Below are positions 1,146 to 33,330 of a stretch of DNA of 64,000 bases, piece after piece. Origin of the DNA: Methylobacter sp. S3L5C (lineage in GTDB: Bacteria > Pseudomonadota > Gammaproteobacteria > Methylococcales > Methylomonadaceae). Location: positions 1,860,001 through 1,924,000 of the forward strand of contig NZ_CP076024.1 of NCBI RefSeq assembly GCF_022788635.1. The letters run 5' to 3'. The stretch's first letter is position 1; each line of letters begins with the position of its first letter. The notes under the pieces were generated by a model. It searched no databases, was not told where the DNA came from, and saw nothing but the letters and a program-made list of their open reading frames with translations. The translations under genes were made by a program, and so were the position numbers.

Positions 1146-2879
1146 TTATGCTTGAACAAGCAAATACAGTAAAACCAGATTGGTTAATAATAGTATTACT
1201 GACAGGCATTTCCAAAATAACAAAGGATTTCGCTCTATCAATGGACTAAAGTTTTTGGTGTCTAGAAATCTTGGATTAGGTGTAGAGAGATCGTACAAGA
1301 ATTCCGATAAATTATCGTAACGAGTATCCGGATTTATTGACGTGCCTTTTTTTAATGCGCCATCAATCCATATTGGAACCATAGCATTTTTATGAAAACT
1401 AGGTACATATTGAAGCTTCGCAAGATTAATGGCGTTAGGTTTTTCGGGCATATCCTGACCAAAAGGGAGTGCACCGTTAATCATTTCATAGCTAATAACG
1501 GCTAGTGAAAACAAGTCGGATTTGGTAGTTCCCCGCTGCCCCAATTGATATTCCGGGGCGCTATAGTTTAAGGTGCCAAGGATATTCTCCTCACTGTCAT
1601 AATCGACCTGCGCTATTTCGGCTATTCCGGCAATTTTAACCGAGCCAAAATCGATGATTTTAACGATTCCCTGTTGATCAAGCATGATGTTTTCAGGCTT
1701 TAAATCCTGATGTAACATTTCCATGCGATGAAAAGCCCGGAGCCCTTTGGCGATTTGTTCTACTATTTTTCTGACCTCCCGGATATAAGGCTTAGGGTTG
1801 GCGACTAACCATTGTCTCAGGGTTTGGCCTTCGATAAATTCGGTAACATAATAAATACAGCTTTTTTGCCGGTCCGTAGTCAGCACTTTAAGGACATTTT
1901 CGTGATGAATACGTTTTCCTGCCCACTCTTCATGCAGAAAATGTTCTATGTAAAAGGTATCATCGTCAAAAAGTATTGACGGCGTTTTCAGGATGACGTG
2001 GCGCTTGTTTTTGGTATCAAATGCCCGATAGATTTGTGTGCGCTTGCTGGCGTGCAGTTCTGCCTTGATAAGGTAGTCATCAATGATCATGCCCGGTTCC
2101 AGGGGCGGAGGGAAAGGCAGGTTGGCATGGCGGCGAATAATTTCGTCTTCTTTGGCTTCCGGCAAGCTATCAATTCTGATCAATTGACAGGTCAGATTAT
2201 CATCGCTTTTATGGATGATTGCCTGCTGCACGATGCCATTGGCAGCTTTGGTTAAATCAGCACTTTCCTGAAGCAGTTGTCTGATAGTTTTCTCATCGAT
2301 AAAATCGTGTATCCCGTCCGTTGTCATTAAAAATAGATCGTTTTTTTCAAGGGGTAGCGATTTATAATCAACTTCCAGTCTGGGTTCAATACCCATGGCG
2401 CGGTTCAGATAGTTTTTGTCCTTGGAAACCCAAATGCGGTGATCACGGGTTATCTGCTCAAGCATGCCTTTGCGCAAACGATAAATTCTGGAATCACCAA
2501 TATGGAAAATATGCGCAGTAGTTGATTTTACAATCAGGATACTGAGTGTACTAACCATGCCTTTACTGGAATCATAGCGGCTATGTCCCTGGCTATATAA
2601 CCAGGAATTGGTTGCCGAGAGTATTTTTTGTCCGGCCTGTTTGACCGACCATGAATCGGGGGTGCTGTAGTAATCGCTCAAGAAACTGACCACACAACAA
2701 TGGCTGGCTGCTTTGCCGGCATCACTACCGCTCATGCCATCGGCAATGGCGGCAGTAATACCTTTATAGACAAGCTGCGAATCTTGCGGTACCAATGAGC
2801 CAAAAAAATCTTCATTCTCCGTTTTAATGCCTTTGTCACTGGCATAGCCAATACTCACTTTGAGTTCAGGTGCAGTCAT
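1146..2879 (-). CDS. Membrane-anchored PP2C phosphatase / Ser-Thr kinase fusion
   Basis: This 577-residue protein joins two opposing signalling enzymes. Residues about 1-235 form a PP2C-type phosphatase with metal-binding motifs IADGMSGSDAG, HIGDSR, TTDGIHD and SDDNLT. Residues about 260-535 form a Hanks-type kinase with catalytic loop HQDLKPEN, metal loop DFGS, and the activation-segment motif YSAPE. A hydrophobic C-terminus (LSVILLLTNLVLLYLLV) would anchor it in the inner membrane. The start chosen is the ATG at 2879; a TTG at 2906 is in frame but gives no better ribosome site. It follows narK by about 50 bp and is probably cotranscribed. A kinase gene beside the nitrate transporter is also known in Pseudomonas (PA1782 next to nasA), so a role in controlling nitrate uptake or assimilation is likely but unproven. 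Confidence 0.85.
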   Translation of the reverse strand: MTAPELKVSIGYASDKGIKTENEDFFGSLVPQDSQLVYKGITAAIADGMSGSDAGKAASHCCVVSFLSDYYSTPDSWSVKQAGQKILSATNSWLYSQGHSRYDSSKGMVSTLSILIVKSTTAHIFHIGDSRIYRLRKGMLEQITRDHRIWVSKDKNYLNRAMGIEPRLEVDYKSLPLEKNDLFLMTTDGIHDFIDEKTIRQLLQESADLTKAANGIVQQAIIHKSDDNLTCQLIRIDSLPEAKEDEIIRRHANLPFPPPLEPGMIIDDYLIKAELHASKRTQIYRAFDTKNKRHVILKTPSILFDDDTFYIEHFLHEEWAGKRIHHENVLKVLTTDRQKSCIYYVTEFIEGQTLRQWLVANPKPYIREVRKIVEQIAKGLRAFHRMEMLHQDLKPENIMLDQQGIVKIIDFGSVKIAGIAEIAQVDYDSEENILGTLNYSAPEYQLGQRGTTKSDLFSLAVISYEMINGALPFGQDMPEKPNAINLAKLQYVPSFHKNAMVPIWIDGALKKGTSINPDTRYDNLSEFLYDLSTPNPRFLDTKNFSPLIERNPLLFWKCLSVILLLTNLVLLYLLVQA

Positions 2880-2929
2880 GTTTAAGTCAATATCAGTCGC
2901 TAACAAGCATAAAGGGTTAATGAGGGGAT

Positions 2930-4448: not shown

Positions 4449-4464
4449 AGCATGTTATGTGCCA
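4449..4464 (-). promoter_or_regulatory. Candidate sigma-54 promoter of narK
   Basis: On the minus strand the sequence reads TGGCACATAACATGCT. The -24 GG (4463-4462) and -12 GC (4451-4450) are separated by exactly 10 nt, as sigma-54 requires, and the -24 box TGGCAC matches consensus. The -12 box is ATGCT rather than TTGCT. Transcription would begin near 4438, leaving a leader of about 30 nt before the preferred narK ATG. Confidence 0.62.
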
Positions 4465-4734: not shown

Positions 4735-4750
4735 TGGCATGTCGTTTGCT
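4735..4750 (+). promoter_or_regulatory. Candidate sigma-54 promoter of nirB operon
   Basis: The sequence TGGCATGTCGTTTGCT carries the -24 GG (4736-4737) and -12 GC (4748-4749) with exact 10-nt spacing, and the -12 box TTGCT is perfect. Transcription would start near 4761, giving a leader of about 35 nt before the nirB ATG. This leader is too short for an ANTAR-type attenuator. Confidence 0.68.
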
Positions 4751-8672: not shown

Positions 8673-9242
8673 ATGCTTAATGTATTATTGATTGAAAGTG
8701 ATCTTGATAATACATTGCTGGAAAACAGCATTAAAGACATTGGTTACCAATGCTTAAAAATCAAATATGGTCCTGCAGTGTTAGCGCTGATTAAGGACAT
8801 CACGCCGGATGCCCTTATTTTCAATCTTGATACACCCTCTAAAAAATTACTGGCTGATCTGAAAGCGCTTAATGATCAATCGCCTTTGCCGGTCATTATG
8901 TTTGTCAATGATACGACTACAGATATTATTAACCAGGTTATTAAAGCCGACATCAGTGCTTTTATAGTCGATGGTCTTCAGGGTAATCGTATTAACACCA
9001 TCATCAACGTGGCTATCGCCAGATTTAAACATCAGCAAGCGCTTAAATACGCACTGGAAGAAGCTTGTGTAAAGCTTGAAGACAGAAAGCAGATTGATCG
9101 TGCCAAAGCCATTTTAATAAAAACGCAAAATTTTACTGAACACGAGGCTTACCATACGCTTAGAAAATTGGCGATGGATAGAAATATTACCTTGGGCGAA
9201 ATGGCTAAAAATGTTGTTGCCATGTCGGAACTGTTTAAATAA
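8673..9242 (+). CDS. nasT: NasT-like response regulator with ANTAR RNA-binding domain
   Basis: The 189-residue protein has an N-terminal receiver-like domain and a C-terminal ANTAR domain. The receiver begins VLLIESDLDN and keeps an aspartate in IFNLDTPS. The ANTAR domain, from about residue 125, has the helices DRAKAILIKTQNFTEHEAYHTL and LGEMAKNVV. ANTAR proteins bind paired hexaloop hairpins in leader RNAs and prevent termination; NasT does this for nitrate assimilation genes. Its likely RNA target lies at 10406-10448 upstream of nrtA. The usual partner NasS, an NrtA-like nitrate sensor without signal peptide, is not encoded next to it, and a GAF protein follows instead. No strong ribosome site is visible before the ATG. 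Confidence 0.82.
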   Translation: MLNVLLIESDLDNTLLENSIKDIGYQCLKIKYGPAVLALIKDITPDALIFNLDTPSKKLLADLKALNDQSPLPVIMFVNDTTTDIINQVIKADISAFIVDGLQGNRINTIINVAIARFKHQQALKYALEEACVKLEDRKQIDRAKAILIKTQNFTEHEAYHTLRKLAMDRNITLGEMAKNVVAMSELFK

Positions 9243-9268: not shown

Positions 9269-10192
9269 ATGAAAACCTTTATCAAAGTTACTGAAGTATG
9301 GATTCCAGACAAAGAACGCACTCAATTGGAATTTGGCTCCGGTTTATATGGCGGACTAACCGATTTTAAAGTAGACAGCGAGCAACAAAAATTCGCTTAT
9401 AACGAAGGCTTGCCGGGTAAGGCTTGGGCTGCCGGTCATCCCATTGTTCTGGCAAAATTTGAACACTCTTATTTTAAGCGTATCGCTGCTGCAAAAAATG
9501 CCGGTTTAACCTGCGGTATTGCCATACCTATTTTTTCCGGCGACTTTCTGATGGCTGTCGTGGTTTTTTTATGTGGCGATGACGAGGATCATGCCGGAGC
9601 TATCGAGGTTTGGTGCAATAATCCGGTTTTGGATAAAAGTCTTGCTGTTATGGACGGTTATTACGGCACACTGCAATATTTTGAAGCTGTCTCCAGACAA
9701 ATCAGCGTACCTAAAGGCCAAGGTTTGGCTGGACTGGCTTGGGAATCGGGTATGCCCGTTCTTATCGATGATATCAGCAAAGCAGATACTTTTATTAGAG
9801 CGGGTGACGCACAACAGGCCGGTATTACTATGGGCATTGGTATTCCTGTTGCCGATAATCCCGGACAGTCTTATATCATGACCTTTTTGTCAGCAAAAGC
9901 GACGCCTATTGCCAAACGTATTCAGATATGGATTCCAGATCAGGAAGGCAAACAACTCATTTGTCAGCAGGGTTATAGTAAAAGCAGTAATGAGCTTGCG
10001 AAAATATTTGAAACCATGGCGGTTACCAAAGGCGTTGGTGCCTTGGGCAGAGTCTGGCTGACGGGCATGCCTGTTATCACGGGTAATCAGGAGTCCGACT
10101 ATAGTCCGGAGCTGGATAGTCTAAGCAGTATGTTGGCCATACCGGTTATAGAAAAAGGCCGGCTAAAAGCCATTGTCAGTTTTCTGTTTTAA
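9269..10192 (+). CDS. Triple-GAF-domain protein, putative NasT partner sensor
   Basis: The 307-residue protein consists of three GAF-like repeats of about 100 residues. Each combines a strand such as VTEVWIPD or IQIWIPD, a motif of the form GLPGKAWAAGHPIV (repeats GLAGLAWESGMPVL, GALGRVWLTGMPVI), and an IPI or IPV strand. It has no membrane segment, kinase, cyclase or DNA-binding domain, so it probably binds a small ligand or a protein partner. It starts 26 bp after nasT and before the nrtA leader. I infer a sensor role for the ANTAR protein in place of NasS; this is not established. Confidence 0.75.
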   Translation: MKTFIKVTEVWIPDKERTQLEFGSGLYGGLTDFKVDSEQQKFAYNEGLPGKAWAAGHPIVLAKFEHSYFKRIAAAKNAGLTCGIAIPIFSGDFLMAVVVFLCGDDEDHAGAIEVWCNNPVLDKSLAVMDGYYGTLQYFEAVSRQISVPKGQGLAGLAWESGMPVLIDDISKADTFIRAGDAQQAGITMGIGIPVADNPGQSYIMTFLSAKATPIAKRIQIWIPDQEGKQLICQQGYSKSSNELAKIFETMAVTKGVGALGRVWLTGMPVITGNQESDYSPELDSLSSMLAIPVIEKGRLKAIVSFLF

Positions 10193-10375
10193 AGTTAACC
10201 GAGTCAGTGAGTGCTGATTTGGTGCAAAATATTTTTACTGTCGCACATTACTGGAGCGCAGCAATTAATAATTCCGATATTGATGTTTACCATCAAAATT
10301 TTTATTTGTAATAAGATAAGTGTAACTGATTGTATTTATTTATCTATTTTAAATATAAATACTTTTCTATGATTT

Positions 10376-10391
10376 TGGCATAGCTTATGCT
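10376..10391 (+). promoter_or_regulatory. Candidate sigma-54 promoter of nrt operon
   Basis: TGGCATAGCTTATGCT has GG at 10377-10378 and GC at 10389-10390 with 10 nt between, the sigma-54 geometry. The predicted start near 10402 is just before the first leader hairpin, so the transcript would open directly with the antiterminator structure. Confidence 0.62.
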
Positions 10392-10405
10392 TTAACATTA
10401 TCAGA

Positions 10406-10448
10406 GGCTCCAACGTTGGAGTCACCATTCCTTGCTCAAAGTTGAGCA
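10406..10448 (+). promoter_or_regulatory. ANTAR-target two-hairpin leader RNA of nrtA
   Basis: Hairpin P1 (10406-10423) pairs GGCTCC with GGAGTC around the hexaloop AACGTT. Hairpin P2 (10433-10448) pairs TGCTC with GAGCA around the hexaloop AAAGTT. Both loops have A at position 1 and G at position 4, the defining pattern of ANTAR-bound RNAs, and the linker is about 9 nt. A terminator follows immediately. The NasT-like protein encoded at 8673-9242 is the obvious ligand, which would allow readthrough into nrtA when active. Confidence 0.78.
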
Positions 10449-10454
10449 CCAGAC

Positions 10455-10514
10455 AAAGGCGTCGCTAAATCTCAGTGTTGTTATTGACACAGAGGTTTTC
10501 GACGCTTTTTTTTT
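10455..10514 (+). terminator. Leader terminator upstream of nrtA
   Basis: The stem GCGTCG (10459-10464) pairs with CGACGC (10500-10505), extended outward by AAAG/TTTT pairs, and is followed by nine T residues at 10506-10514. An inner GTGT/ACAC stem extends the structure. It lies between the ANTAR hairpins and the nrtA ATG, so it is probably the conditional terminator of the operon. Confidence 0.8.
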
Positions 10515-10545
10515 GCACTGAATATCTGAACAGGATAAAGCCGTT

Positions 10546-11946
10546 ATGAAAAAATCGGGAAAATTAACTATTAAAAATCTGGTTACAGCACTTGTAACCG
10601 TCGCCGCTATGTCAACGTTAAGCTTTGCGTCCAGTGTTGGTGCTGTTGAAAAACTGGAGAAAGAAAGTCTGAAGTTGGGCTTTATCAAATTAACCGATAT
10701 GGCACCTTTAGCGGTTGCTTTTGAAAAAGGCTATTTCGAAGATGAAGGGCTTTCCGTCCAAATTGAAGCTCAAGCCAACTGGAAGGTTTTATTGGACCGG
10801 GTTATCAATGGTGAGCTTGATGGTGCCCACATGCTGGCAACATTGCCCTTTGGAACTGCCATAGGTTATGGTACCAAAGCAGATATTATCAGTGCTTTCA
10901 CGATGACCTTAAATGGCGATGCCATTACGGTATCGAATGATGTCTGGAAGCAAATGAAACCGCAGATACCCATGCAGGACGGTAAACCGGTACATCCTGT
11001 TAAAGCGGATACCTTAAAGCCGGTACTTGAAAAATATAAAAATGCCGGCAAACCGTTCAATATGGCAATGACTTTTCCGGTTGGAACTCATAATATGAAA
11101 TTGCGTTACTGGCTGGCAGCCGGTGGTATTAAACCGGGATATTATGCACCGCCGGAAGACACTTCCGGTCAAATTGATGCCGAAGCCATATTGTCAGTAA
11201 CCCCGCCACCACAAATGCCGGCTACTATGGATTCAGGCACTATTGTTGGTTATTGCGTCGGTGAACCCTGGAATCAGCAAGCCGTATTTAAAGGTATAGG
11301 TGTCCCGGTTATCAGCGATTATGAACTGATGAAAAATAGTCCTGAAAAAATTTTTGGGGTGACCAAAGAATGGGCGGATAAATATCCTAATACCCACTTG
11401 GCAGTCATCAAGGCCTTAATTCGTGCATCAATGTGGCTGGATGCAGAAAATAATAAAAACCGTAACGAAGGCGTAGAAATGCTCTCGCAAAAACAGTATG
11501 TCGGTGCTGACTATGAGGTTATTGCCAACAGCATGAACGGCACTTTTGAATACGAAAAGGGTGATAAACGTGCATTACCCGATTTTAATGTGTTTTTTCG
11601 TTATAACGGCTCTTACCCCTATTACAGCGATGCGGTTTGGAGCTTGACCCAAATGCGTCGCTGGGGACAAATCAACGAGCAAAAACCGGATGCCTGGTAT
11701 ATGGAAATTGCCAAAAAAGTGTACCGCCCTGATATTTACATGGCAGCAGCCAAAGCCTTAATTGCCGAAGGTAAAGCTAAAGCCGGCGACTTTCCCTCTG
11801 ATAAAGAAACCGGCTTTAAAGCACCCAGCGCCGACTTTATCGATGGCATTGTTTATGACGGTAACAAACCTAATGAGTATCTGACTAAATTTACTATCGG
11901 TCTTAAAGGCAAACAAAAAGTAGCCGGTGGCAAGGTTGTTGAGTAA
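10546..11946 (+). CDS. nrtA: Nitrate ABC transporter substrate-binding protein
   Basis: The 466-residue protein has an N-terminal signal sequence (LVTALVTVAAMSTLSFASSVGA) and then the NrtA/NasF fold. Family markers are LKLGFIKLTDMAPLAVAFEKGYFEDEGL, in which the first strand and the A-P-L-A core align, together with GELDGAHML and the region MAMTFPVGTHNMKLRYWLAAGG. The signal sequence distinguishes it from the cytoplasmic sensor NasS. It binds nitrate or nitrite in the periplasm for the NrtB/NrtCD importer. Control is probably by the sigma-54 promoter and ANTAR leader upstream. Confidence 0.92.
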   Translation: MKKSGKLTIKNLVTALVTVAAMSTLSFASSVGAVEKLEKESLKLGFIKLTDMAPLAVAFEKGYFEDEGLSVQIEAQANWKVLLDRVINGELDGAHMLATLPFGTAIGYGTKADIISAFTMTLNGDAITVSNDVWKQMKPQIPMQDGKPVHPVKADTLKPVLEKYKNAGKPFNMAMTFPVGTHNMKLRYWLAAGGIKPGYYAPPEDTSGQIDAEAILSVTPPPQMPATMDSGTIVGYCVGEPWNQQAVFKGIGVPVISDYELMKNSPEKIFGVTKEWADKYPNTHLAVIKALIRASMWLDAENNKNRNEGVEMLSQKQYVGADYEVIANSMNGTFEYEKGDKRALPDFNVFFRYNGSYPYYSDAVWSLTQMRRWGQINEQKPDAWYMEIAKKVYRPDIYMAAAKALIAEGKAKAGDFPSDKETGFKAPSADFIDGIVYDGNKPNEYLTKFTIGLKGKQKVAGGKVVE

Positions 11947-12042: not shown

Positions 12043-13059
12043 ATGAACAACCAATTAATCAAATTTTTTAACATAACCGGCTTAACCTGGTTTGTACCTT
12101 TTGTAAAAATAGCGGCCGGTGAAAATCCTGCACAACAAGCCCGTCAGCTATTTTTGATTATGGGCGTACCCATTATTGCTTTTACTTTGTTTCTGGGGCT
12201 TTGGAGTTTTTCCGCTGCCAAAGTTAACACCAGTCTTGGCGCAATACCCGGCCCTGTTGCCGTTTGGCATGAGGCTGGGGGCTTATTGACGGAACATTTC
12301 GCAGAAAGGGACAAAGAAGCCAAGTTTTATCAACGCCAGCAAGAGCGCAATACACAAACATTGGCAGAAAATCCGGCAGCTGAAATTAAATCCCGGCCTT
12401 ATAACGGTCAGGCGACTTATCTGGACAAGATTTTCACCAGTCTTTATACGGTTTTTGCAGGCTTTGTCATTGCCACACTGATCGCTGTGCCACTGGGTCT
12501 TTTATGTGGCATGAGTCCGGTTGTCAATACGGCAATCAACCCACTGATTCAGCTTTTTAAACCGGTATCACCATTGGCCTGGTTACCTATTGTGACGCTG
12601 GTTGTCAGTGCGGTTTATATTACTACCGAGGATTCATGGTTTGAAAAATCTTTTTTAACATCAGCCATTACGGTAACGCTGTGTTCGCTTTGGCCAACCT
12701 TAATTAATACCGCTGTCGGCGTATCTTCCATAGATAAAGATTTGGTTAACGTAGGCAAGGTATTACGTCTTAACTGGTTTACGCAGATTAAAAAAATCAT
12801 TTTACCATCGGCTTTGCCTTATATTTTTACCGGCATGCGGTTATCGCTGGGAGTGGGCTGGATGGTGTTAATTGCTGCGGAAATGCTGGCACAAAATCCG
12901 GGGCTGGGGAAATTTATCTGGGATGAATTTCAAAACGGCAGCTCAAATTCCTTGGGACGAATCATGGTGGCTGTATTTACCATTGGTATTATCGGTTTTA
13001 TTTTGGACCGTATCATGCAGTCATTTCAAAAAGTATTCTCTTTTGGTAAAGATATTTAA
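12043..13059 (+). CDS. nrtB: Nitrate ABC transporter permease
   Basis: The 338-residue inner-membrane permease belongs to the BPD_transp_1 family. The EAA loop is visible as VGKVLRLNWFTQIKKIILPSALPYIFTG, with the family markers for nitrate/sulfonate/taurine permeases around it and a C-terminal GLGKFIWDEFQNGS segment. A hydrophilic, charged stretch of about 45 residues (AERDKEAKFYQRQQER and following) separates the first helix from the core, longer than in many permeases of this group. The start has GAGG about 9 bp upstream. It works with nrtA and the tandem ATPase encoded next. Confidence 0.92.
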   Translation: MNNQLIKFFNITGLTWFVPFVKIAAGENPAQQARQLFLIMGVPIIAFTLFLGLWSFSAAKVNTSLGAIPGPVAVWHEAGGLLTEHFAERDKEAKFYQRQQERNTQTLAENPAAEIKSRPYNGQATYLDKIFTSLYTVFAGFVIATLIAVPLGLLCGMSPVVNTAINPLIQLFKPVSPLAWLPIVTLVVSAVYITTEDSWFEKSFLTSAITVTLCSLWPTLINTAVGVSSIDKDLVNVGKVLRLNWFTQIKKIILPSALPYIFTGMRLSLGVGWMVLIAAEMLAQNPGLGKFIWDEFQNGSSNSLGRIMVAVFTIGIIGFILDRIMQSFQKVFSFGKDI

Positions 13060-13072
13060 TCAGGAGTCTGTT

Positions 13073-14824
13073 ATGCCAACCGTAAAAATTAAATTAGTTC
13101 ATAGTAGTGTAGTGACTAAAAAGCCCTTGCCATTAAACGATCCTTACTTGCCGTTAGTGGAATTAAAGAATGTTTGTAAAGCTTATGGTGACGGTAAAGA
13201 TAAAACATCGATTCTGAAAAATATCAATTTAACCGTTAAACAGGGTGAGTTTATCGCCATTGTCGGCTTTTCCGGCAGTGGAAAAACCACGTTGATTTCA
13301 ACCATTGCAGGTTTAATTCAGGCTGACAGCGGTGAAGTATTAAAACAGGGGCAGCCAATTACCGGGCCGGGGCCTGATCGTGGCGTGGTATTTCAAAATT
13401 ATTCGTTGATGCCGTGGTTAACGGTTTATGAAAACGTAGCTTTGGCAGTTGATACCATTTTTAAAGACTGGACTGCCGAACAACGTAAAGCGCATACAGA
13501 AAAATATATTCGTATGGTTAATCTGGGTGCTGCCATGGCTAAAAAACCGGCGGAATTATCGGGCGGCATGCGCCAACGGGTTAATGTAGCCCGGGCTCTG
13601 GCGGCCAGTCCGGATATTTTATTACTGGATGAACCGCTAAGTGCCCTGGATGCGTTGACACGCGGTAATTTGCAGGATGAAATTTTACAAATCTGGGAGC
13701 AGGAAAAGAAAACAGTTATCCTGATTACCAATGATGTCGATGAAGCTATTTATATGGCAGATCGTGTTATTCCGTTAAACCCTGGCCCTGATGCAACCTT
13801 TGGCCCCGATTTTCTTATCGATATTGAACGGCCACGTAATAGAACGGCGTTAAATCATAACGAAACATTTAAAAAATGTCGTGCCGAAATTACCCAATAT
13901 CTAATGGCTATTGGCATCGAAAAGACCGGGGAATCGGCACCGGATAAAATTATCCTGCCAACGGTTCGGCCTAATACCAGCAATGATTGGAACCGGGATA
14001 GTTCCGCACTAAAATCGAGTAAGGAGGGCCTGGGCCGGCCTCGCTATCTGGAGTTTTCGCAGTTGTCAAAAAGTTACCCGACACCCGATGGTAACAGCAG
14101 CGTTAAAGTTGTTGACGGTTTTGACCTGAAAATGAAAAAAGGTGAGTTTATCTCCATTATCGGTCATTCAGGTTGCGGTAAATCCACGGTTTTATCAATG
14201 ACTGCCGGATTAAACAGTATTTCCGAAGGAGGTATTGTTCTTGATAACCGCGAGATTGATGGCGCGGGTCCTGATCGTGGCGTGGTATTTCAGGCTCCCA
14301 GCCTGTTTCCGTGGTTGACGGCATTTGAAAATGTGACATTGGGGGTTGATAAGGTTTATCCCCATGCCACCAAAGCAGAGCGTAACGATATTGTTGAATA
14401 CTACCTGACCCGTGTTGGCTTGGCAGATTCATTGCATAAAAAAGCCGCTGAACTATCTAATGGAATGCGCCAACGGGTAGGAATTGCTCGCGCCTTTGCC
14501 TTGTCACCCAAGTTGCTGTTACTTGATGAACCTTTCGGTATGTTGGATTCATTAACGCGCTGGGAGTTGCAGGAAGTTTTGATGGAAGTTTGGGAGCGGA
14601 CGCACGTAACCGCTATCGTCGTGACACACGATGTTGATGAAGCTATTTTATTGGCAGACCGCGTGGTGATGATGACCAACGGCCCTCATGCAAAAATAGG
14701 CAAAATAGAAGTCATCGATTTACCCAGGCCGCGCACGCGAAAAGCATTGCTTGCACACCCTGATTATTATAAATACCGGGAAAGTTTATTAACTTTTCTG
14801 GCCGAATGCGATCAGGCACATTAG
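13073..14824 (+). CDS. nrtCD: Tandem ATP-binding subunit of nitrate ABC importer
   Basis: The 583-residue protein carries two complete ABC ATPase domains in one chain. Domain 1 has Walker A GFSGSGKTT (about 65-73), signature LSGGMRQR and Walker B ILLLDEP, but its switch motif reads ITNDVDEA, with Asn where His is usual. Domain 2 has Walker A GHSGCGKST (about 364-372), signature LSNGMRQR and a normal VTHDVDEA. The frame is open farther upstream, but the ATG at 13073 with CAGGAG six bases before it is clearly the start. In cyanobacteria these functions are on two proteins, NrtC and NrtD, and NrtC carries an NrtA-like domain that is missing here. The His-to-Asn change suggests asymmetric ATP sites. 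Confidence 0.92.
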   Translation: MPTVKIKLVHSSVVTKKPLPLNDPYLPLVELKNVCKAYGDGKDKTSILKNINLTVKQGEFIAIVGFSGSGKTTLISTIAGLIQADSGEVLKQGQPITGPGPDRGVVFQNYSLMPWLTVYENVALAVDTIFKDWTAEQRKAHTEKYIRMVNLGAAMAKKPAELSGGMRQRVNVARALAASPDILLLDEPLSALDALTRGNLQDEILQIWEQEKKTVILITNDVDEAIYMADRVIPLNPGPDATFGPDFLIDIERPRNRTALNHNETFKKCRAEITQYLMAIGIEKTGESAPDKIILPTVRPNTSNDWNRDSSALKSSKEGLGRPRYLEFSQLSKSYPTPDGNSSVKVVDGFDLKMKKGEFISIIGHSGCGKSTVLSMTAGLNSISEGGIVLDNREIDGAGPDRGVVFQAPSLFPWLTAFENVTLGVDKVYPHATKAERNDIVEYYLTRVGLADSLHKKAAELSNGMRQRVGIARAFALSPKLLLLDEPFGMLDSLTRWELQEVLMEVWERTHVTAIVVTHDVDEAILLADRVVMMTNGPHAKIGKIEVIDLPRPRTRKALLAHPDYYKYRESLLTFLAECDQAH

Positions 14825-26806: not shown

Positions 26807-28123
26807 ATGGCAATCACTACATTAGAACTCGACGCACTTAAACCCAAATCAAAGCCCTATATCATTCGTGAAAAACAGCACGATAAAAAAGATGGGACTC
26901 TTGCTTTTAAGGTTTTACCCAGTGGCGATATAGACGGGTATTTTATTTACTATGTTGATAGGAAAGAGAAGCAAAAGAAGATTGGTCGTTATGGCAAAGG
27001 GTCAATGAGCCTAAAAGCAATTAGGGACAAATACACCGAGTTTTCAAAAGAGTATCAATCTGGTACTGACATTAAGGAGCAGGCTTTAGTTGAGGAAGCA
27101 GCAGAGGTGCAAGCACTACAAGAGCAGGCAATAATTGACCGCAAAAAACAAATGCAGGGTAGTTTTGAACAGCTTGTTAGTCTGTACCTTGAGCATGTAG
27201 AGGCAGAGCTTAGCGGTCACCATTATGGCGCTATTAAAAAGGCTTATAGCTGTAATCTTCAAGGCTTTGACTCTACTATCAAAGCGAGTGATATAACTAA
27301 GCAAGACATTATCAGTATTATTCACCCAATTATTGCAAGAGGCTCACTGGTTGCCGCTAACCGAATGAGGGCTTATCTATCCGCAATGTTCAAATGGGGT
27401 ATTGAATTTGATGATGAACTAGATGCAATTAAAAATAATGTCCAGTTCTACATTGAATCTAACCCGGTAACCTATGTTAAGAAGCCACTTAAAAAAGAAG
27501 CGCCCACGGATAGATTCTTAACTGAAAGCGAGGTTCGTACATTCTGGGCGGCGTTAAACAAAAGTGCTATGTCACCACACCGAGCTAATGTATTCCGGTT
27601 AATGTTGGCGCTAGGTTGCCGTGTTGAGGCTTTATCTGGTTTACGTTGGACTGATATTGATTGGAACGAAAGATTGTTAACTATACCGCCAGCACGTAGT
27701 AAAAACGGTGCTTATTGGGTAATACCGATTAATGATATTGCTTATGATGTTTTGATAAGTAACCCTAAGCTAAATAATGAATTCTTATTTCCTGCTAAAA
27801 GCGGAACTGAACCGTTAAGGCTGGATGGTTACGCCAAGGCGATAACACGCACTTGTAAGCAGTTTTCAATTGAATCATTCACACCAAAAGATCTACGTAC
27901 TACATTTAAAACACTGGCAGGTATGGCAGGACTAAGCAAGGAAGTAAGGGATAGAATTCAAAACCACGCCTTAACTGATGTATCTTCAAAACACTACGAC
28001 CGGTACGACTACCTCAAAGAGAAGCGTCACGCAATGATAGTATGGAATGATTACTTACAGAGGGTTATTGATGGGGTTAGCCTTGATGATAATGTTGTTT
28101 TACTGCGAAAGGGCGGCGCATGA
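26807..28123 (+). CDS. int: Tyrosine-type site-specific integrase
   Basis: The 438-residue protein combines an N-terminal DUF4102-like arm-binding region (residues 1-100), a SAM-like core-binding domain and a catalytic domain from about 245. Catalytic residues visible are Arg in GCRVEALSGLRW, Arg in TPKDLRTTF, His in NHALTD and the tyrosine nucleophile in KHYDRYDY. In the HxxR box the usual His is Lys (KDLR). It would insert the element into the tRNA-Thr gene and, with an excision factor, remove it. The gene lies beside attL, pointing into the element, as is common. Confidence 0.94.
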   Translation: MAITTLELDALKPKSKPYIIREKQHDKKDGTLAFKVLPSGDIDGYFIYYVDRKEKQKKIGRYGKGSMSLKAIRDKYTEFSKEYQSGTDIKEQALVEEAAEVQALQEQAIIDRKKQMQGSFEQLVSLYLEHVEAELSGHHYGAIKKAYSCNLQGFDSTIKASDITKQDIISIIHPIIARGSLVAANRMRAYLSAMFKWGIEFDDELDAIKNNVQFYIESNPVTYVKKPLKKEAPTDRFLTESEVRTFWAALNKSAMSPHRANVFRLMLALGCRVEALSGLRWTDIDWNERLLTIPPARSKNGAYWVIPINDIAYDVLISNPKLNNEFLFPAKSGTEPLRLDGYAKAITRTCKQFSIESFTPKDLRTTFKTLAGMAGLSKEVRDRIQNHALTDVSSKHYDRYDYLKEKRHAMIVWNDYLQRVIDGVSLDDNVVLLRKGGA

Positions 28124-28260
28124 AGCAAGCTTGAAAAGATTGTTTCGTAATTGGAAATAGCTAATTTCATATATTTTATAGGTGGTATTTGAGCGCGGTC
28201 AAATAAATCAGGAGGTTATTTGGATATAGTGGTTACTCATTAAACAGACGGAGCCACACC

Positions 28261-28467
28261 ATGCATGATGCGAATGTAATTATCAGACTGAAACAGCTAT
28301 TAGCTGAAACAGGCGTAAGCCGATCTTCAGCTTACAACAAATGGGACATTAAGAGCTTGTACTATGATCCACTATTTCCCCAGCCATTCAAGATCGGTCA
28401 AAGATCAATCGGTTTTAAATCTGGCGAGGTTGTTAACTGGATAGAAAGTTTAGGCAAAGCCGCCTAG
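28261..28467 (+). CDS. AlpA-like small DNA-binding regulator/excisionase
   Basis: The 68-residue protein has the AlpA/MerR-like winged helix: IIRLKQLLAETGVSRSSAY (helix-turn-helix), FPQPFKIGQRSIGFKSGEVVNWIES. AlpA proteins activate integrase or act as excision factors for tRNA-borne elements. GGAG lies seven bases before the ATG. Placement between integrase and replication gene supports control of excision or replication. Confidence 0.8.
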   Translation: MHDANVIIRLKQLLAETGVSRSSAYNKWDIKSLYYDPLFPQPFKIGQRSIGFKSGEVVNWIESLGKAA

Positions 28468-28525
28468 AAAAGAATAAAGCCTACTGGAGTAGGCTTCAAG
28501 GACACAATCAATAAGGAACATTATA

Positions 28526-31108
28526 ATGGAATATACAATATATTCAAAGGATTACGGGCTATTAACCAAAGAGATTAGGTTAGAAAATGGTGAAATCATT
28601 AAGGATAGCTCTCAGTGTCGCATGGCTAACGGAGCAGTTCAAACCGTAGCCGTTTCTAACTTGCTAGAGCTTGCCGAAAGCTTAAAAAACCTTACTTCAA
28701 GTCAGGCGATTGGGTTAGGTGTACCACGTATAAGATCTGAAAAAGCATTACGAATAGTAAAAAAAGGACTGGAAGCAGAGATTTCTATTAGTCGGACTAG
28801 AGATTGTGTTCACTACGAGGAGCTGAAACCAGCCTTTGCACTTCTGGACTATGACCCTGAGAAGGGAAAGACAGCCCTATCAATTGATGAAGTTCGCGCA
28901 TATTTAATAGGGCTTGTCCCCGCTTTAAAAGACTGTGAGATGCTGGCGTTAAGCTCGACATCGAGCGGGGTCTATAAGGAAAGCGAACCCCAGCCAAAAG
29001 CCCTGAATGGCGGTATTCACTATTATATAGCTGTTGATGATGGCTCTAAAATCCCAGAGCTTGGGAAGATTATTGCTGAAAAGTGCTGGCTTCAGGGGTT
29101 AGGTAGATTTGATAGCTCTAAATCAGGTACATTATTATCCCGTACTTTATTTGATGAAGCCGTATATAGCCCGGAACGCCTGATATTTGAAGCCCCGCCA
29201 GTGTTAGGAGTTGGGCTTAAGCAATTACCCCGTATGGTTCGCCATTGGCAAGGGGGTATCTTAAAGGCTTCTGACATTAGGGGGTTAACCACTTCGGAAC
29301 TAAGCAGGGTTGAAACCTTAAAGCTTGAAGCTAAAGCCTTAAAGCAGCCAGAAGCCGATATAGTAAAAGCCGCTTCCAATAAAAAGGATGTAGATAGGCT
29401 GATTAAAACAGGAATTAATAAGCATGTAGCCCTTGAGCAAGTGACAAGGGCAAACAATGGAATCTTAACCGGTGGGTTGGATTTGCATTTTGCCGGTTTG
29501 CCGGTGGTTACCGTAACAGATGTATTACGCGACCCTGCATCTTTTGACGGCTGGGAATTGGCAGATATAGACGACCCGCTAAACGGTCAGTATAGATCGA
29601 AGCTTTATAAAAATGAAACAGGTCTTAAAATTCATACATTTAAAGGCGGCGGCGGTAACTACACCATAGATAAAGTTGAAATTAAGCTAGATATGGATAA
29701 CCCCACGGTTGTATTTGAACACATCGAATCAGCTTTAAACACAGGGACTAGGCCGGACGTGTTTAAAAGAGCTGGCCTTTTGTGTCAGACTGGAAGAGAT
29801 GGGGTAATAAGGATACTTACAACGGCCTTGATAGCCGTGAGTGTGAGTAGGTTGGTAAGGTTCTATAGACCTAAAAACGTTAAGGGTGAGTGGATAAGGG
29901 AAAGGGTAGAAGTACCAGATCGGTTGTGGAAGGCTTTTTTAGAAAAAGGTGACTGGTCTATCCCTGAGTTATTAGGCATTACAGACGCGCCTTATCTGGT
30001 TGATGGTGAGGTTATCCAGACCGCTGGCTATAACTTTAATTCTAAGCTGTACCTCAGTAGAGAATTTGATTTTTGTATCCCTAAAAAGCCTACAAGGGTA
30101 CAGGCAGGAACAGCCTTGACCTATTTACGTAAGATCTTATCAGGGTTTCCGTTTGCAAGCCCAGTTGATGAAGCTGTTGCATTGGCTATGATGTTAACAG
30201 CCATACAACGGCCTACGCTGGAAACTGCCCCAGCATTTGCGCCTACAGCGAACGCGCCGGGTGTAGGGAAAACCCAGCTAGGGTTGGGTGTAGTTTCGAT
30301 TAGCACAGGTAGCACTCCTGTTGTTCACGCTTATAGGGATAATGAACAAGAGTTCTCAAAGATGCTGACATCTGTATTGATACAGGGTAAATCCTACCTG
30401 ATAATTGATAACGTGAAGCTGGGCGTTGCTCTAGGTGGTGATGCCTTATGTACCTTACTTACTTCGTCTGTATTCGGAGATAGGTTGTTAGGAGTATCCA
30501 GAATTATTGAGATGCCGACGAGAATTTTAATTGTCGCCACAGGTAACAATCTAAAGCTAAGCTCCGATATAACCAGAAGATGCCTGATGGTTTACTTAGA
30601 TGCTAGATGTGAAAGGCCAGAGCTTCGAGAGTTCGATAAGAGCTTTATACAAATATGTAAAGATGAAAGGGAGCCTATCCTTAAAGCGATTCTGACTATC
30701 TTAAAGGCTTACCACACAGCGGAACGACCAAAGGTTGATAACGTAAGGCTGGGTACTTTTGAACAGTTCAGCGACGACATTTGTAAGCCCTTAGTATGGT
30801 TGGGAGTGGTTGACCCTGTGTTGGGTTTGGCTAAAGCTTCAGCTGATGAAGGCATAGCTGGATTGGGTGAGCTTTTACAAATTTGGGCTTTTGAAGTATT
30901 TGATAAACGGGTGACAACACAAGAGCTATTAACCCATCCCGGAGTAAGTGAATGGTTTAGATCTGAATTTGATGACAAGGGAGGCTTGAATGTTCGCAAG
31001 GTGGGACGTTTTTTATCAAAATACGCTGGGCGGGTATTAGATGGTATGAGAGTCATACAGGATGGAACCTTACATAAAGTTACTGTCTGGAGATTAGAAA
31101 CTGTCTGA
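28526..31108 (+). CDS. Primase/helicase replication protein
   Basis: The 860-residue protein seems to combine a primase-like N-terminal half and a helicase-like C-terminal half. In the N-terminal half, acidic LLDYDPE and GGIHYYIAVDD fit a primase/polymerase active site, and AVYSPERLIFEAPP is a stretch common in phage and island primases. In the C-terminal half, NAPGVGKTQ is Walker A (about 579-587), YLIIDN is Walker B, and ILIVATGNNLKLSSDITRR carries sensor 1 and an arginine finger. It would start and drive replication of the excised element, probably at the repeat-rich DNA just downstream. Confidence 0.85.
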   Translation: MEYTIYSKDYGLLTKEIRLENGEIIKDSSQCRMANGAVQTVAVSNLLELAESLKNLTSSQAIGLGVPRIRSEKALRIVKKGLEAEISISRTRDCVHYEELKPAFALLDYDPEKGKTALSIDEVRAYLIGLVPALKDCEMLALSSTSSGVYKESEPQPKALNGGIHYYIAVDDGSKIPELGKIIAEKCWLQGLGRFDSSKSGTLLSRTLFDEAVYSPERLIFEAPPVLGVGLKQLPRMVRHWQGGILKASDIRGLTTSELSRVETLKLEAKALKQPEADIVKAASNKKDVDRLIKTGINKHVALEQVTRANNGILTGGLDLHFAGLPVVTVTDVLRDPASFDGWELADIDDPLNGQYRSKLYKNETGLKIHTFKGGGGNYTIDKVEIKLDMDNPTVVFEHIESALNTGTRPDVFKRAGLLCQTGRDGVIRILTTALIAVSVSRLVRFYRPKNVKGEWIRERVEVPDRLWKAFLEKGDWSIPELLGITDAPYLVDGEVIQTAGYNFNSKLYLSREFDFCIPKKPTRVQAGTALTYLRKILSGFPFASPVDEAVALAMMLTAIQRPTLETAPAFAPTANAPGVGKTQLGLGVVSISTGSTPVVHAYRDNEQEFSKMLTSVLIQGKSYLIIDNVKLGVALGGDALCTLLTSSVFGDRLLGVSRIIEMPTRILIVATGNNLKLSSDITRRCLMVYLDARCERPELREFDKSFIQICKDEREPILKAILTILKAYHTAERPKVDNVRLGTFEQFSDDICKPLVWLGVVDPVLGLAKASADEGIAGLGELLQIWAFEVFDKRVTTQELLTHPGVSEWFRSEFDDKGGLNVRKVGRFLSKYAGRVLDGMRVIQDGTLHKVTVWRLETV

Positions 31109-31110
31109 TT

Positions 31111-31334
31111 GGGGGTTTGTGGGGGTTAATGTGTATTTAAATACAGGAAACCCCCACAGCTTCAAACCAATGATATAGGGGGCTACAAGGGTTTTATGGG
31201 GGTTTGTGTATTATATTTATATAATAGAAAGAAATAATTATTATATAGTAGTGTATATAGAGAGGGCTGAAAAAACCCATTTAAAACCCCCATAATACAC
31301 ATTTAGTTATAAATCAAAGAGTTACAAGCAACAC
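31111..31334. other. G-run and inverted-repeat region, candidate origin
   Basis: Right after the primase/helicase gene, GGGGGTTT-type blocks occur at 31111, 31121 and 31198. Their complements AAACCCCC or AAAACCCC lie at 31148 and 31284, and an AT-rich core (31207-31260, mostly A and T) lies between. TGTGTATTA/TAATACACA elements are attached to the G blocks. Iteron-like repeats beside an AT-rich stretch and next to the replication gene suggest an origin for the excised element. No function is shown by sequence alone. Confidence 0.4.
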
Positions 31335-31363
31335 AAACCCCCATTTGTGGGGGTTTCTTTTTT
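31335..31363 (+). terminator. Perfect 9-bp terminator after origin-like region
   Basis: AAACCCCCA (31335-31343) pairs perfectly with TGGGGGTTT (31348-31356) across a 4-nt loop and is followed by CTTTTTT. It should end transcription from the primase/helicase gene. Confidence 0.85.
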
Positions 31364-31388
31364 AAATCGAGCATGGAAGCCTTAAAAT

Positions 31389-31688
31389 ATGGATAAAATC
31401 ACAGAATCTATCATTTTTGACCTGATAAAAGCAGGAAATCCAATTGAGATGGTTAGTTTTGAAATGGGCGTATCATCTCAGGACATAAAAGCCGCGATGC
31501 AGAACGCAGAACGTAATAAAATATCTAATATACTGGCTGAACAGCTGGCGACCCGTTTGCCTGCATTACTGGAATTAGCATTAAAACAGTTACAGTTTAT
31601 TATTTTAAATGAAAATACTGAGAGGAGGTTAAGAGCAATAAATATGGTAATCCAAGCCTCAACAGCGCTAGCCAAAATCAAACCGTAA
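31389..31688 (+). CDS. Small helical protein of unknown function
   Basis: The 99-residue protein is predicted mostly helical and begins with a segment, IEMVSFEMGVSSQDIKAAMQNA, that looks like a helix-turn-helix. The rest is a leucine-rich helix pair. I do not recognise a family. It is the first of three small genes after the terminator and runs in the same direction, so it needs its own promoter in the 25-bp gap or readthrough. Confidence 0.6.
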   Translation: MDKITESIIFDLIKAGNPIEMVSFEMGVSSQDIKAAMQNAERNKISNILAEQLATRLPALLELALKQLQFIILNENTERRLRAINMVIQASTALAKIKP

Positions 31689-31716
31689 CCATATTCACAA
31701 ATTTCAAAGGATTGAA

Positions 31717-32067
31717 ATGTTATATAAAAAATCAGCACCAAAAACCGACAGTTACGACACCTCAGCTCTGGCCAATGATCTAATTCGAGCACTGGGAAGC
31801 GTTAGATCTAATTTCCTGAAATTAGATCTTAAGGAGTTAGCCGTACGCGTACCCCAGCTAAGAGGACATGACGAATTGTTTAAAGCTCAATTTGCCCACC
31901 TCCAAGCGTTGGTTAATAAATCAGATTATCTTACCTCTGAGGCGATGCAGAATTCAGCTGTGGGACTGATTGAGAGTTTAATACGTGATCTGTACCTAGC
32001 TATTCCAAAGAGCCGCCGTAATGAGTTGTGCCTGACTCAAGCTATCTGCATAAAATTAGCTCTATAA
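31717..32067 (+). CDS. Small protein of unknown function
   Basis: The 116-residue protein has AAAGGA well placed before the ATG. It is hydrophilic and probably helical (ANDLIRALGSVRSNFLKLDL, SEAMQNSAVGLIESLIRDLY), with no membrane segment or recognisable motif. It follows the previous gene by 28 bp, so both are probably cotranscribed. Confidence 0.6.
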   Translation: MLYKKSAPKTDSYDTSALANDLIRALGSVRSNFLKLDLKELAVRVPQLRGHDELFKAQFAHLQALVNKSDYLTSEAMQNSAVGLIESLIRDLYLAIPKSRRNELCLTQAICIKLAL

Positions 32068-32377
32068 AGCAATACCAATGTAACCCTTCACAGAAAAAAC
32101 CCTGTGAGGGGCTTCTATTTAAGCCTAATATCGAAATATTCAAAAAATCTTTTGTCCAGCCCTATTATAGCCAGCGCGGGACTCCCCGTATTAAGTACCC
32201 TGTGGGTCTGTACAATAGTAATCAGTCGGGCAACTCCTGCCCGTCATTATCTGGAATTGTAATGGCTAAAATTATCGCGGTTTTAAAATGGTTCGCCTAA
32301 GTCGCAAGACAGAACCATCGACACCCAATAATAAAGTTACAAGACAGAACCCTTTACTTCAATCTGGAATTAAGATC
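32068..32377. other. Structured non-coding stretch with two hairpins
   Basis: The first hairpin pairs CCCTTCACAG (32084-32093) with CTGTGAGGGG (32102-32111) and could terminate the upstream pair of genes, though only CTTCTATTT follows. The second pairs CGGGCA with TGCCCG (32227-32243). A frame of about 90 codons crosses the stretch from 32028, but its composition and lack of a ribosome site argue against coding. Confidence 0.45.
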
Positions 32378-32743
32378 ATGGCTAACCATTTAAAATCATT
32401 CAAGGCTACTTACTGGAATCACTCTTTAAAAATGGAAGTGATTAAGGATATTTTCGCTACTGATATTAATACCGCACAGCGTGAAGCGTTCAAGCTTGAC
32501 GTAAAAGCATTGGCAGAAGTTGGCGTGTTTAGTGGAGTCTTATCTCTAGTGAACGTGTTTGAAATAACAGAGGTCGTGGAAGTAGTCCCCTTATACCAAG
32601 CATTACTAAATGATATGTGGAGCAAAATAGATGCAGAAACAGCGTTGTTTGATGTGGAAGTGGGTAGAAGGGAACAACCTAGACAGGGTGCCCAGTTGTT
32701 CGAGTCCCTAGCTGGGGTGACCCCAGCATACACGGCCTTATAA
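32378..32743 (+). CDS. Small protein of unknown function
   Basis: The 121-residue product starts at ATG 32378 (MANHLKSFKATYWNHSLK); the frame is open from 32288 but the leading residues look random. It contains LVNVFEITEVVEVVPLYQALLNDMW and no recognised domain. It is the last plus-strand gene of the element before the opposing lipoprotein gene. Function unknown. Confidence 0.55.
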   Translation: MANHLKSFKATYWNHSLKMEVIKDIFATDINTAQREAFKLDVKALAEVGVFSGVLSLVNVFEITEVVEVVPLYQALLNDMWSKIDAETALFDVEVGRREQPRQGAQLFESLAGVTPAYTAL

Positions 32744-32782
32744 CTCTGTTATTGAGTAGTACTTAAAAGGGTTACAAAGTAA

Positions 32783-32941
32783 CTAAGGTTTAATAAAGTT
32801 CTGCATTTGCAGGTTCATTAACTGCATACTGTTGTTAAGTGTCTGCATCTGGTTATTCCGAATGGCTTCCTCCTGAGTCATCGGAGTAGTGGCACAGCCA
32901 CTTAACAATACCAATAAGGTTACTAGAAATAATTTAATCAT
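32783..32941 (-). CDS. Tiny lipoprotein encoded at element's right end
   Basis: A 52-codon minus-strand gene reads MIKLFLVTLLVLLSGCATTP, then a methionine- and glutamine-rich tail. The lipobox LLSGC puts the lipid-modified cysteine at residue 16, leaving a mature chain of 37 residues. GGAGAA lies five to ten bases before the ATG. The tail is probably a short amphipathic helix. Possible roles are phage exclusion or a spanin-like envelope function; neither is shown. Confidence 0.65.
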   Translation of the reverse strand: MIKLFLVTLLVLLSGCATTPMTQEEAIRNNQMQTLNNSMQLMNLQMQNFIKP

Positions 32942-33066
32942 CGAAATTCTCCAAATATAAAGCTGGAGTATAGTCTAACTAACTACTGGACGTATAAACT
33001 TTGCAGTGCCTCAGGCTTTATAAGGATTAGCCCACGCTTTTTAACAATCTATGTAAGATGATTACA

Positions 33067-33101
33067 CACTGGCTTGAGATTTAAGTCAGTGAGCTTTTTT
33101 T
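33067..33101 (+). terminator. Rightward terminator near element end
   Basis: CACTGGCTT pairs with AAGTCAGTG (one G-T pair, 7-nt loop) and is followed by AGCTTTTTTT. It would stop element transcription from running into the tRNA-Thr gene from its antisense side. Confidence 0.7.
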
Positions 33102-33163
33102 AGTTATGACCGGCAAAGATTGCCGCTAAGAAAAAGCTTAATATTTAGGTACAGTGTTGGCTG

Positions 33164-33187
33164 TTGCCCAGACCATTGCCCAGACTA
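33164..33187. repeat. Right arm-type tandem TTGCCCAGAC repeat
   Basis: An exact copy of the 24-bp block at 26694-26717, again with two TTGCCCAGAC units at 12-bp period and in the same orientation. It lies 55 bp inside attR. The pair is best explained as integrase arm sites. Confidence 0.6.
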
Positions 33188-33214
33188 AGACGGGTTTTAC
33201 TGAATTTTAGGCAA

Positions 33215-33246
33215 TAAAAAAGACCTACATTTTCATGTAAGTCTTT
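33215..33246 (-). terminator. Element-borne terminator for tRNA-Thr
   Basis: On the minus strand AAAGACTTACAT pairs with ATGTAGGTCTTT (one mismatch, GAAA loop) followed by TTTTATT. It is only 9 bp past the tRNA 3' end and replaces the chromosomal terminator displaced to 26478-26513. Confidence 0.75.
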
Positions 33247-33302
33247 GAATTCTTTGGAGCTAGTGAGGGGATTCGAACTCCTGACCGGCTGATTACAAAT
33301 CA
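33243..33302. repeat. attR within tRNA-Thr
   Basis: The 60 bp match attL exactly and form the 3' part of the intact tRNA-Thr gene. The element therefore supplies the tRNA's 3' end, while its 5' end is chromosomal. Confidence 0.92.
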
Positions 33303-33330
33303 GCTGCTCTACCAACTGAGCTACACCAGC
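33255..33330 (-). tRNA. tRNA-Thr (UGU)
   Basis: The minus strand folds as a 76-nt tRNA: acceptor GCTGGTG/CACTAGC, D arm GCTC/GAGC, anticodon stem GCTGA/TCAGC with loop TTTGTAA (anticodon UGU), and T arm AGGAG/CCCCT with TTCGAAT. The CCA end is encoded. The gene remains intact because the integrated element rebuilds its 3' half. Confidence 0.97.

Follow-up and report, generated by a model that had tools for sequence, protein, structure and literature searches.

A predicted sigma-54 promoter and ANTAR attenuator with an extra middle hexaloop upstream of nrtA in Methylobacter sp. S3L5C

The genome of Methylobacter sp. S3L5C is a single 4.8-Mb contig, and the window referred to throughout is the 64,000-nucleotide stretch of it that was analysed. 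The locus comprises, in order, narK (minus strand), nirB, nirD, a PhzF-family gene, a nasT-like gene, a gene for a three-GAF protein, the leader discussed here, nrtA, nrtB and nrtCD. The nasT-like gene (8673-9242, plus strand) encodes a pseudo-receiver followed by an ANTAR domain (Pfam ANTAR, 62.8 bits) and is the sole ANTAR gene found in the genome, which agrees both with the upstream NasT-like gene described in an earlier note on this DNA and with the pairing of leader and protein suggested there. The GAF gene (9269-10192, plus strand), absent from that note, sits between nasT and the leader; on the strength of its domains, linkage and structure we regard it as a conserved partner gene of nasT and propose its product as a sensor. 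The first gene after the leader is nrtA (10546-11946, plus strand), encoding the binding protein of a nitrate ABC transporter (Pfam NMT1_2, 306 bits), followed on the same strand by the permease gene nrtB (12043-13059; Pfam BPD_transp_1, with TIGR01183 at 154.2 bits, below its cut-off of 209) and by the fused ATPase gene nrtCD (12872-14824; TIGR01184, 593 bits), given here as the longest open reading frame, the true start probably lying further inside it. A PP2C phosphatase-protein kinase fusion is encoded beside narK (1146-2906, minus strand).

Preceding the nrtA leader is the sequence TGGCATAGCTTATGCT (10376-10391, plus strand), which has the GG-N10-GC form of a sigma-54 (-24/-12) promoter, as the earlier note had proposed, and from sigma-54 geometry we take transcription to start at about 10402. 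The pattern TGGCAYNNNNNWTGCW, which was designed with this site in view, has five exact matches in the 64 kb against 0.62 expected, and three of the five stand in the correct orientation before narK, nirB and nrtA; the sites before nirB (4735-4750, plus strand) and narK (4449-4464, minus strand) are both perfect matches. The covariance model described below, R1, finds one leader in this genome and has no match at the nirB and narK sites; a nirB-like gene is preceded by a leader of its own in some relatives (L079, L081, L085, L089, L097). In the 60 nt upstream of 69 related leaders, a sigma-54 site matching at least 10 of 11 positions occurs in 62, compared with 0.12% of mononucleotide shuffles; the match is 11/11 in 31 of these 62 and the site lies at -24 to -26 in 48. 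RpoN and NtrC are both encoded in this genome. Two NtrC-like sites (10211-10225 and 10243-10257, neither assigned to a strand) agree with 8 of 10 consensus positions and are weak alone, there being 45 sites that score at least 8 in the window. Across the 69 leaders the best NtrC-like site averages 8.16/10 against 6.88 in mononucleotide shuffles, with individual sites weak, and many of the best sites in relatives were seen by eye to lie around -190. Activation of the promoter by NtrC would fit this arrangement, for which the upstream sites are suggestive only.

Downstream of the predicted start, the RNA is predicted to fold into P1 (10406-10423, plus strand), with a 6-bp stem and the hexaloop AACGTT at 10412-10417, and P2 (10433-10448, plus strand), an extra middle hairpin with a 5-bp stem and the hexaloop AAAGTT at 10438-10443; the coordinates and the six-base loops with A at position 1 and G at position 4 (A1/G4) reported previously were confirmed. 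Folding of 10400-10520 gives a minimum free energy of -44.8 kcal/mol (z -5.10, with 0 of 200 shuffles as low), and this fold draws the loops of P1 and P2 as tetraloops because A1 is paired to U6 in both. A predicted intrinsic terminator (10455-10514, plus strand; -25.8 kcal/mol) follows, with a 5' arm at 10455-10464, a 3' arm at 10500-10509 and the expected run of nine T at 10506-10514. Overlooked in the earlier note was a third A1/G4 hexaloop inside the 5' arm of this terminator, the mini-hairpin P3, GAC[AAAGGC]GTC (10452-10463, plus strand, loop 10455-10460), which is predicted in RNA cut at 10466. In such RNA all three hairpins are predicted together (-19.6 kcal/mol in total); P3 alone is weak (-2.1 kcal/mol predicted) and P1 and P2 are stabler. 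P3 and the terminator are mutually exclusive, both using bases 10455-10464. A scan requiring a pair of A1/G4 hexaloop hairpins, each with a stem of 4 bp or more, separated by 3-20 nt and followed within 90 nt by 7 or more T, gave one match in the window (this leader) and four in total in 20 dinucleotide-shuffled windows; with a third hairpin added to the rule the shuffled windows gave none.

Leaders of relatives preserve this structure. Alignment A1 comprises 20 of 23 extracted leaders, the window's included, L003, L007 and L025 being omitted because they were near-duplicates or had P2 duplicated; in it the structure of P1, P2 and terminator gives 93.4% paired cells, compared with 37-53% when slid by one to three columns. 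The stem of P1 shows two-sided changes in all six of its pairs, and A1/G4, counted by eye, is kept in 18/20 leaders for P1, 18/20 for P2 and 20/20 for P3 with other loop positions varying. In L007 (2622-2758) the P2 hairpin is a tandem duplicate whose first copy has T, not A, at loop position 1. The inner three pairs of P3 are invariant in the 20 leaders, and since these core pairs never vary covariation is no test of them; the fourth pair is standard in 45/66 leaders where 29.4 would be expected, and with relatedness ignored none of 2000 permutations reached 45. The 5' arm of the terminator is nearly constant, and it is on the 3' side that the pairing wobbles (columns 67-123: GU 13, GC 6, AU 1). 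R1 models P1, P2 and the terminator but not the promoter, and consequently favours leaders that have these three elements; of 151 genomes searched, 81 yield a leader at E<=0.1 and 65 at E<=0.001. A leader (E<=0.001) and an ANTAR gene occur together in 64 of the 151 genomes, a leader only in 1, an ANTAR gene only in 33 and neither in 53, and the corresponding figures for the 91 genomes of the same family are 54, 1, 2 and 34; the 33 genomes with an ANTAR gene and no leader partly reflect the weakness of R1 outside the family. L084 (G072:C14:3308-3419) is a good leader match, and no ANTAR gene was found in G072.

The model-aligned set consists of 69 matches at E<=0.01 from 81 chosen sources, the related genomes among them not being independent, and in these the hexaloop is present at P1 in 62 leaders, at P2 in 47 and at P3 in 67. 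All three occur in 39, P1 with P3 in 21, P2 with P3 in 6, P3 only in 1 and P1 with P2 in 2. The last combination is confined to G060 and G084, the sole leaders whose scanned stretch has no run of five T, one of the two falling just one stem base short of the P3 rule. Both loci (L102:308-421 in G084 and L106:278-389 in G060), while failing the P3 rule and having no T-run, keep nasT and gaf, and NasT may have another target in these two genomes. In published ANTAR leaders, including those of nasF and amiE, the available parts of the sources describe a second hairpin that is a mini-hairpin located at the terminator's 5' base (PMC3369931, PMC8934654, PMC7496416), and for this reason it is P3, not P2, that stands at the antiterminator position. 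Judged from sequence, P3 is likely to be the switching hairpin and a probable antiterminator. The leader thus combines A1/G4 hexaloop hairpins with overlap of the terminator by P3, rather than by P2, in a genome encoding an ANTAR protein, and we consider it very likely to be an ANTAR attenuator.

The putative regulator departs from a classical NasT. Its receiver domain scores 21.3 bits, below the Pfam cut-off of 30.2, it is 30-35% identical to three NasT proteins adjoining NasS, and it has Asn51 at the position of the receiver phospho-Asp. Apart from NrtA, this genome yielded no NasS-type (NMT1_2) protein in a search that found the family in 12 of 14 control genomes, and a classical NasS-NasT system was rejected because the only NMT1_2 match is NrtA itself. 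Of the earlier proposal that nitrogen limitation is combined here with a nitrate signal, the part borne by the sigma-54 promoter is supported and the nitrate part is less certain, since the search gave no NasS-type protein besides NrtA and the NasT-like protein lacks the phospho-Asp. Nor is there a NIT domain fused to ANTAR, the window's ANTAR protein being receiver-like at its N-terminus and matching no NIT domain; the genome-wide search for NIT domains was uninformative, its control giving no match. Among relatives (f1, f4, f6, f7 and f8 being family labels, and g14 a genus label, in the genome set), the phospho-site is Asn in 26 of 29 aligned NasS-less NasT of f1, with Ala, His and Asp once each, and Val and Ala in two NasT of f7/f8. 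It is Asp in 23/23 (3 + 20) NasT from lineages with NasS-NasT pairs (f4, f6, g14) and also in four ANTAR proteins of another type. In 7 of the 20, however, no NasS-type gene was seen directly beside nasT (G100, G111, G117, G126, G131, G137, G150), so the Asn/Asp split tracks lineage as much as it tracks NasS. An NMT1_2 gene was recognised by eye just upstream of nasT in 16 genomes, and the absence of a second strong NMT1_2 protein in NasS-less genomes was likewise read by eye, among the matches listed.

Several observations on relatives bear on the range of these systems. Within f1, NasS-NasT was seen only in G047 and G073 (g14), and the leaders of both lack the P2 hexaloop. We nonetheless dropped the idea of the three-hexaloop leader having arisen as NasS was lost, because the consensus of the Rfam family P11 (and locus L236, for which see below) also has a middle A1/G4 hairpin; within the order, the comparison is confounded with ancestry. 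A narK-like gene, recognised by its likeness to the narK of the window, stands directly 5' of a NasS-less nasT at L117, L118, L122, L123, L124, L132, L098 and L100, and all five NasT aligned from such narK-nasT loci have Asn at the phospho-site. Neither NasS nor GAF adjoins nasT in 8/8 of the narK-nasT loci fetched, so the GAF protein is not required by every NasS-less NasT. L119, L121, L125 and L131 encode a different type of receiver-ANTAR protein, whose phospho-Asp is intact, and just 5' of its gene at L121, L125 and L131 is what appears by eye to be a sensor-kinase-like ORF. One in-frame TAG lies within the ANTAR-match frame at G102:C14:291711-291872.

The three-GAF protein is 98% identical in the same-genus genome G034 and has a mean column identity of 78% over 32 sequences. 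It occurs in 43 of the 151 genomes, all 43 of which have an ANTAR protein, and in none of the 16 genomes having a NasS-type gene beside nasT. Among GAF loci in named genomes, of which the best 80 of 303 were considered and 70 classed as methanotroph-type by their record titles, nasT is directly upstream of the GAF gene in 55/70 methanotroph-type loci, and nasT, nrtA/B or nirB is present in 63/70, in several gene orders; within the same best 80, no nasT was found near the GAF homologues of Bradyrhizobium, Sulfuriferula, Thiogranum and one unplaced MAG (0/10 fetched flanks). The predicted structure has three GAF-like modules (pLDDT 86.2, pTM 0.88), and the best 50 of 80 Foldseek matches (E<=0.001) include cyclic-nucleotide GAFs, plant EGL3/MYC3 and NreA. 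Three NreA chains, 4iuk (nitrate bound), 6izj and 4iuh, match with TM 0.54-0.56 by their own length and 0.27 by query length, ranking 35, 36 and 50 in the list with 34 chains above the first of them; sequence searches with single GAF repeats gave no match to NreA, and a fold match to NitrOFF1 (9ncu) was discarded at TM 0.26 by query length. NreA is described, in the available parts of PMC8199190 and PMC9310391, as a soluble GAF regulator that binds nitrate. Its likeness to our protein is one of fold alone, and NreA of Staphylococcus acts, according to the part of PMC8199190 available, on an oxygen-sensing two-component system, whereas here three GAFs lie beside an ANTAR gene. The presence of NreA among the fold matches makes it plausible, on the modelled structure, that the GAF protein senses nitrate. 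It is the best candidate to replace NasS as the regulator of NasT, at something short of even odds; no report of a GAF partner of NasT was found in a literature search with most subscription journals outside its scope.

Two established systems provide the closest analogues. In Klebsiella, control by the Ntr system together with ANTAR antitermination is established, as far as the accessible text of PMC5424462 goes, so the combination of sigma-54/NtrC with ANTAR is not new. NasR and the nasF leader resemble our locus in joining Ntr control by nitrogen limitation to ANTAR antitermination at a hexaloop leader, and the nasF dual hexaloop, with its second hairpin placed at the base of the terminator, is nitrate-responsive (available parts of PMC5424462, PMC3369931 and PMC7496416); NasR, however, has its own NIT sensor, whereas the ANTAR protein here is of the receiver type and the leader has three hexaloops. 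The NasS-NasT system of the nasA leader in Paracoccus, Pseudomonas and Azotobacter likewise has a receiver-ANTAR protein and a hairpin leader before nitrate assimilation genes (PMC3795266, PMC5424462, in the parts available), and the two-hairpin motif has been identified for NasT too, according to the accessible portion of PMC7496416. Our locus differs in having only NrtA as an NMT1_2 protein, Asn for the phospho-Asp, and a GAF gene beside nasT.

Two Rfam families are also recognisable in the leader, both below their gathering scores. The narK RNA (RF03032) scores 34.4 bits against a gathering score of 43.2, which is passed by 2 of 20 searched loci of relatives; the promoter, the P1 loop and the CGACAAAGACGUCGC element align, but an extra hairpin is inserted here and Rfam marks the P3 stretch as unpaired. 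P11 (RF00625), a Pseudomonas sRNA, scores 30.7 bits (E 4.2e-5) against 70; here the promoter, the hairpins and GGACAAAGGCGUCC align, although Rfam types this family as an sRNA gene ('Gene') and not as an ANTAR leader. At L236, the one locus above this threshold, the gene that follows is nirB-like. Each of the two consensus sequences has the promoter as well as the P3 stretch, and among class-wide RF03032/RF00625 matches a GAC-A..G..-GTC element stands behind an upstream hexaloop or promoter in 14 of 19 loci read, two places appearing twice among the 19 and five being without the element under the rule used. At L247, NrtA/NasS-like and NasT-like genes lie upstream. No description of narK RNA or P11 as ANTAR targets was found in a literature search whose scope left out most subscription journals.

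Read from its sequence, the region is a sigma-54 promoter followed by an ANTAR attenuator that belongs to a known kind and has one more hexaloop in the middle, and we propose a model of two-input control of nrtABCD to which, as a whole, we would assign a probability of roughly 0.8. Under nitrogen limitation, NtrC would activate the sigma-54 polymerase to start near 10402, and by default the transcript would stop at about 10514. In the emerging transcript the NasT-like protein would bind the hexaloop of P3 along with that of P1, P2 or both; by stabilising P3 it would make 10455-10464 unavailable to the terminator, and the polymerase would read through into nrtA. The protein would act without NasS and probably without phosphorylation, unlike classical NasS-NasT, and the three-GAF protein would most likely gate it, possibly through binding of nitrate or nitrite. 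Binding by NasT, the direction of the switch and its readthrough, the signal and the role of the GAF protein are each steps that we infer.

The earlier note had taken P1 and P2 to be the complete switch, and a version of this, in which an ANTAR dimer sits on the P1+P2 dual hexaloop and the terminator is overcome without direct overlap, for example by a protein-modified polymerase, would draw on the fact that both hairpins keep A1/G4 in 18/20 leaders and are stabler than P3. Neither overlaps the terminator, though, and so the pair is not a switch by itself; of the 69 leaders the hexaloop is missing at P2 in 22 and at P1 in 7 but at P3 in only 2, the eight leaders of f4, a family with NasS-NasT pairs, have P1 and P3 with no middle hexaloop, and published ANTAR leaders have the second hairpin at the terminator base (PMC3369931, as available in part). 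With P3 the near-constant hairpin, we rejected P1+P2 as the whole switch and consider the dimer version improbable. More improbable still is that these 140 nt are an independent small RNA rather than a cis-acting attenuator, as the RF00625 match and the RNA of about 113 nt expected without readthrough might suggest, since that match is well under its gathering score and the ANTAR motif overlaps the terminator. Downstream of the leaders read in 27 relatives, moreover, is an nrtA-like frame in 15, a nirB-like frame in 5 and a narK-like frame in 4 (24/27), with 3 unrecognised, these frames being recognised by eye from their likeness to the window genes.

A more serious competitor accepts the attenuator and dispenses with a dedicated nitrate sensor: NasS would have been lost, the Asn receiver would be locked, NasT would act through its concentration, as set by NtrC, or through a metabolite, and the GAF protein would be a bystander. 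NasS-less NasT without an adjacent GAF gene in the 8/8 narK-nasT loci and in two f7/f8 loci, and GAF homologues occurring away from nasT elsewhere, count in its favour; the nasT-gaf adjacency in methanotroph-type loci, the company of nasT, nrtA/B or nirB kept despite changed gene orders (both among the best 80 of 303) and the high conservation of the GAF protein speak against it, and we hold it to be a real possibility of perhaps one-third weight. Gating by the three-GAF protein, the reading that we prefer, can be taken further, to a change of NasT partner in one methanotroph family, in which NasS was lost, Asp became Asn, and the three-GAF protein became the nitrate/nitrite sensor for a three-hexaloop leader; in this full form we think it rather unlikely. 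Were it true, it would be a third route, besides the NIT-ANTAR fusion and NasS-NasT, for feeding nitrate into ANTAR antitermination.

The analysis moves the probable switch in this leader from P2 to P3, points to a single mechanism behind narK RNA and P11, which Rfam names as separate families, and recasts the control of NasT without NasS as a question about two proteins. The nitrate use of these bacteria is relevant to the turnover of methane and of nitrogen in wetlands and lakes. Elsewhere in the window, a phage-type integrase gene, a large ORF and a tRNA-Thr (33255-33330) lie within 26807-33330, which is possibly an integrated element.
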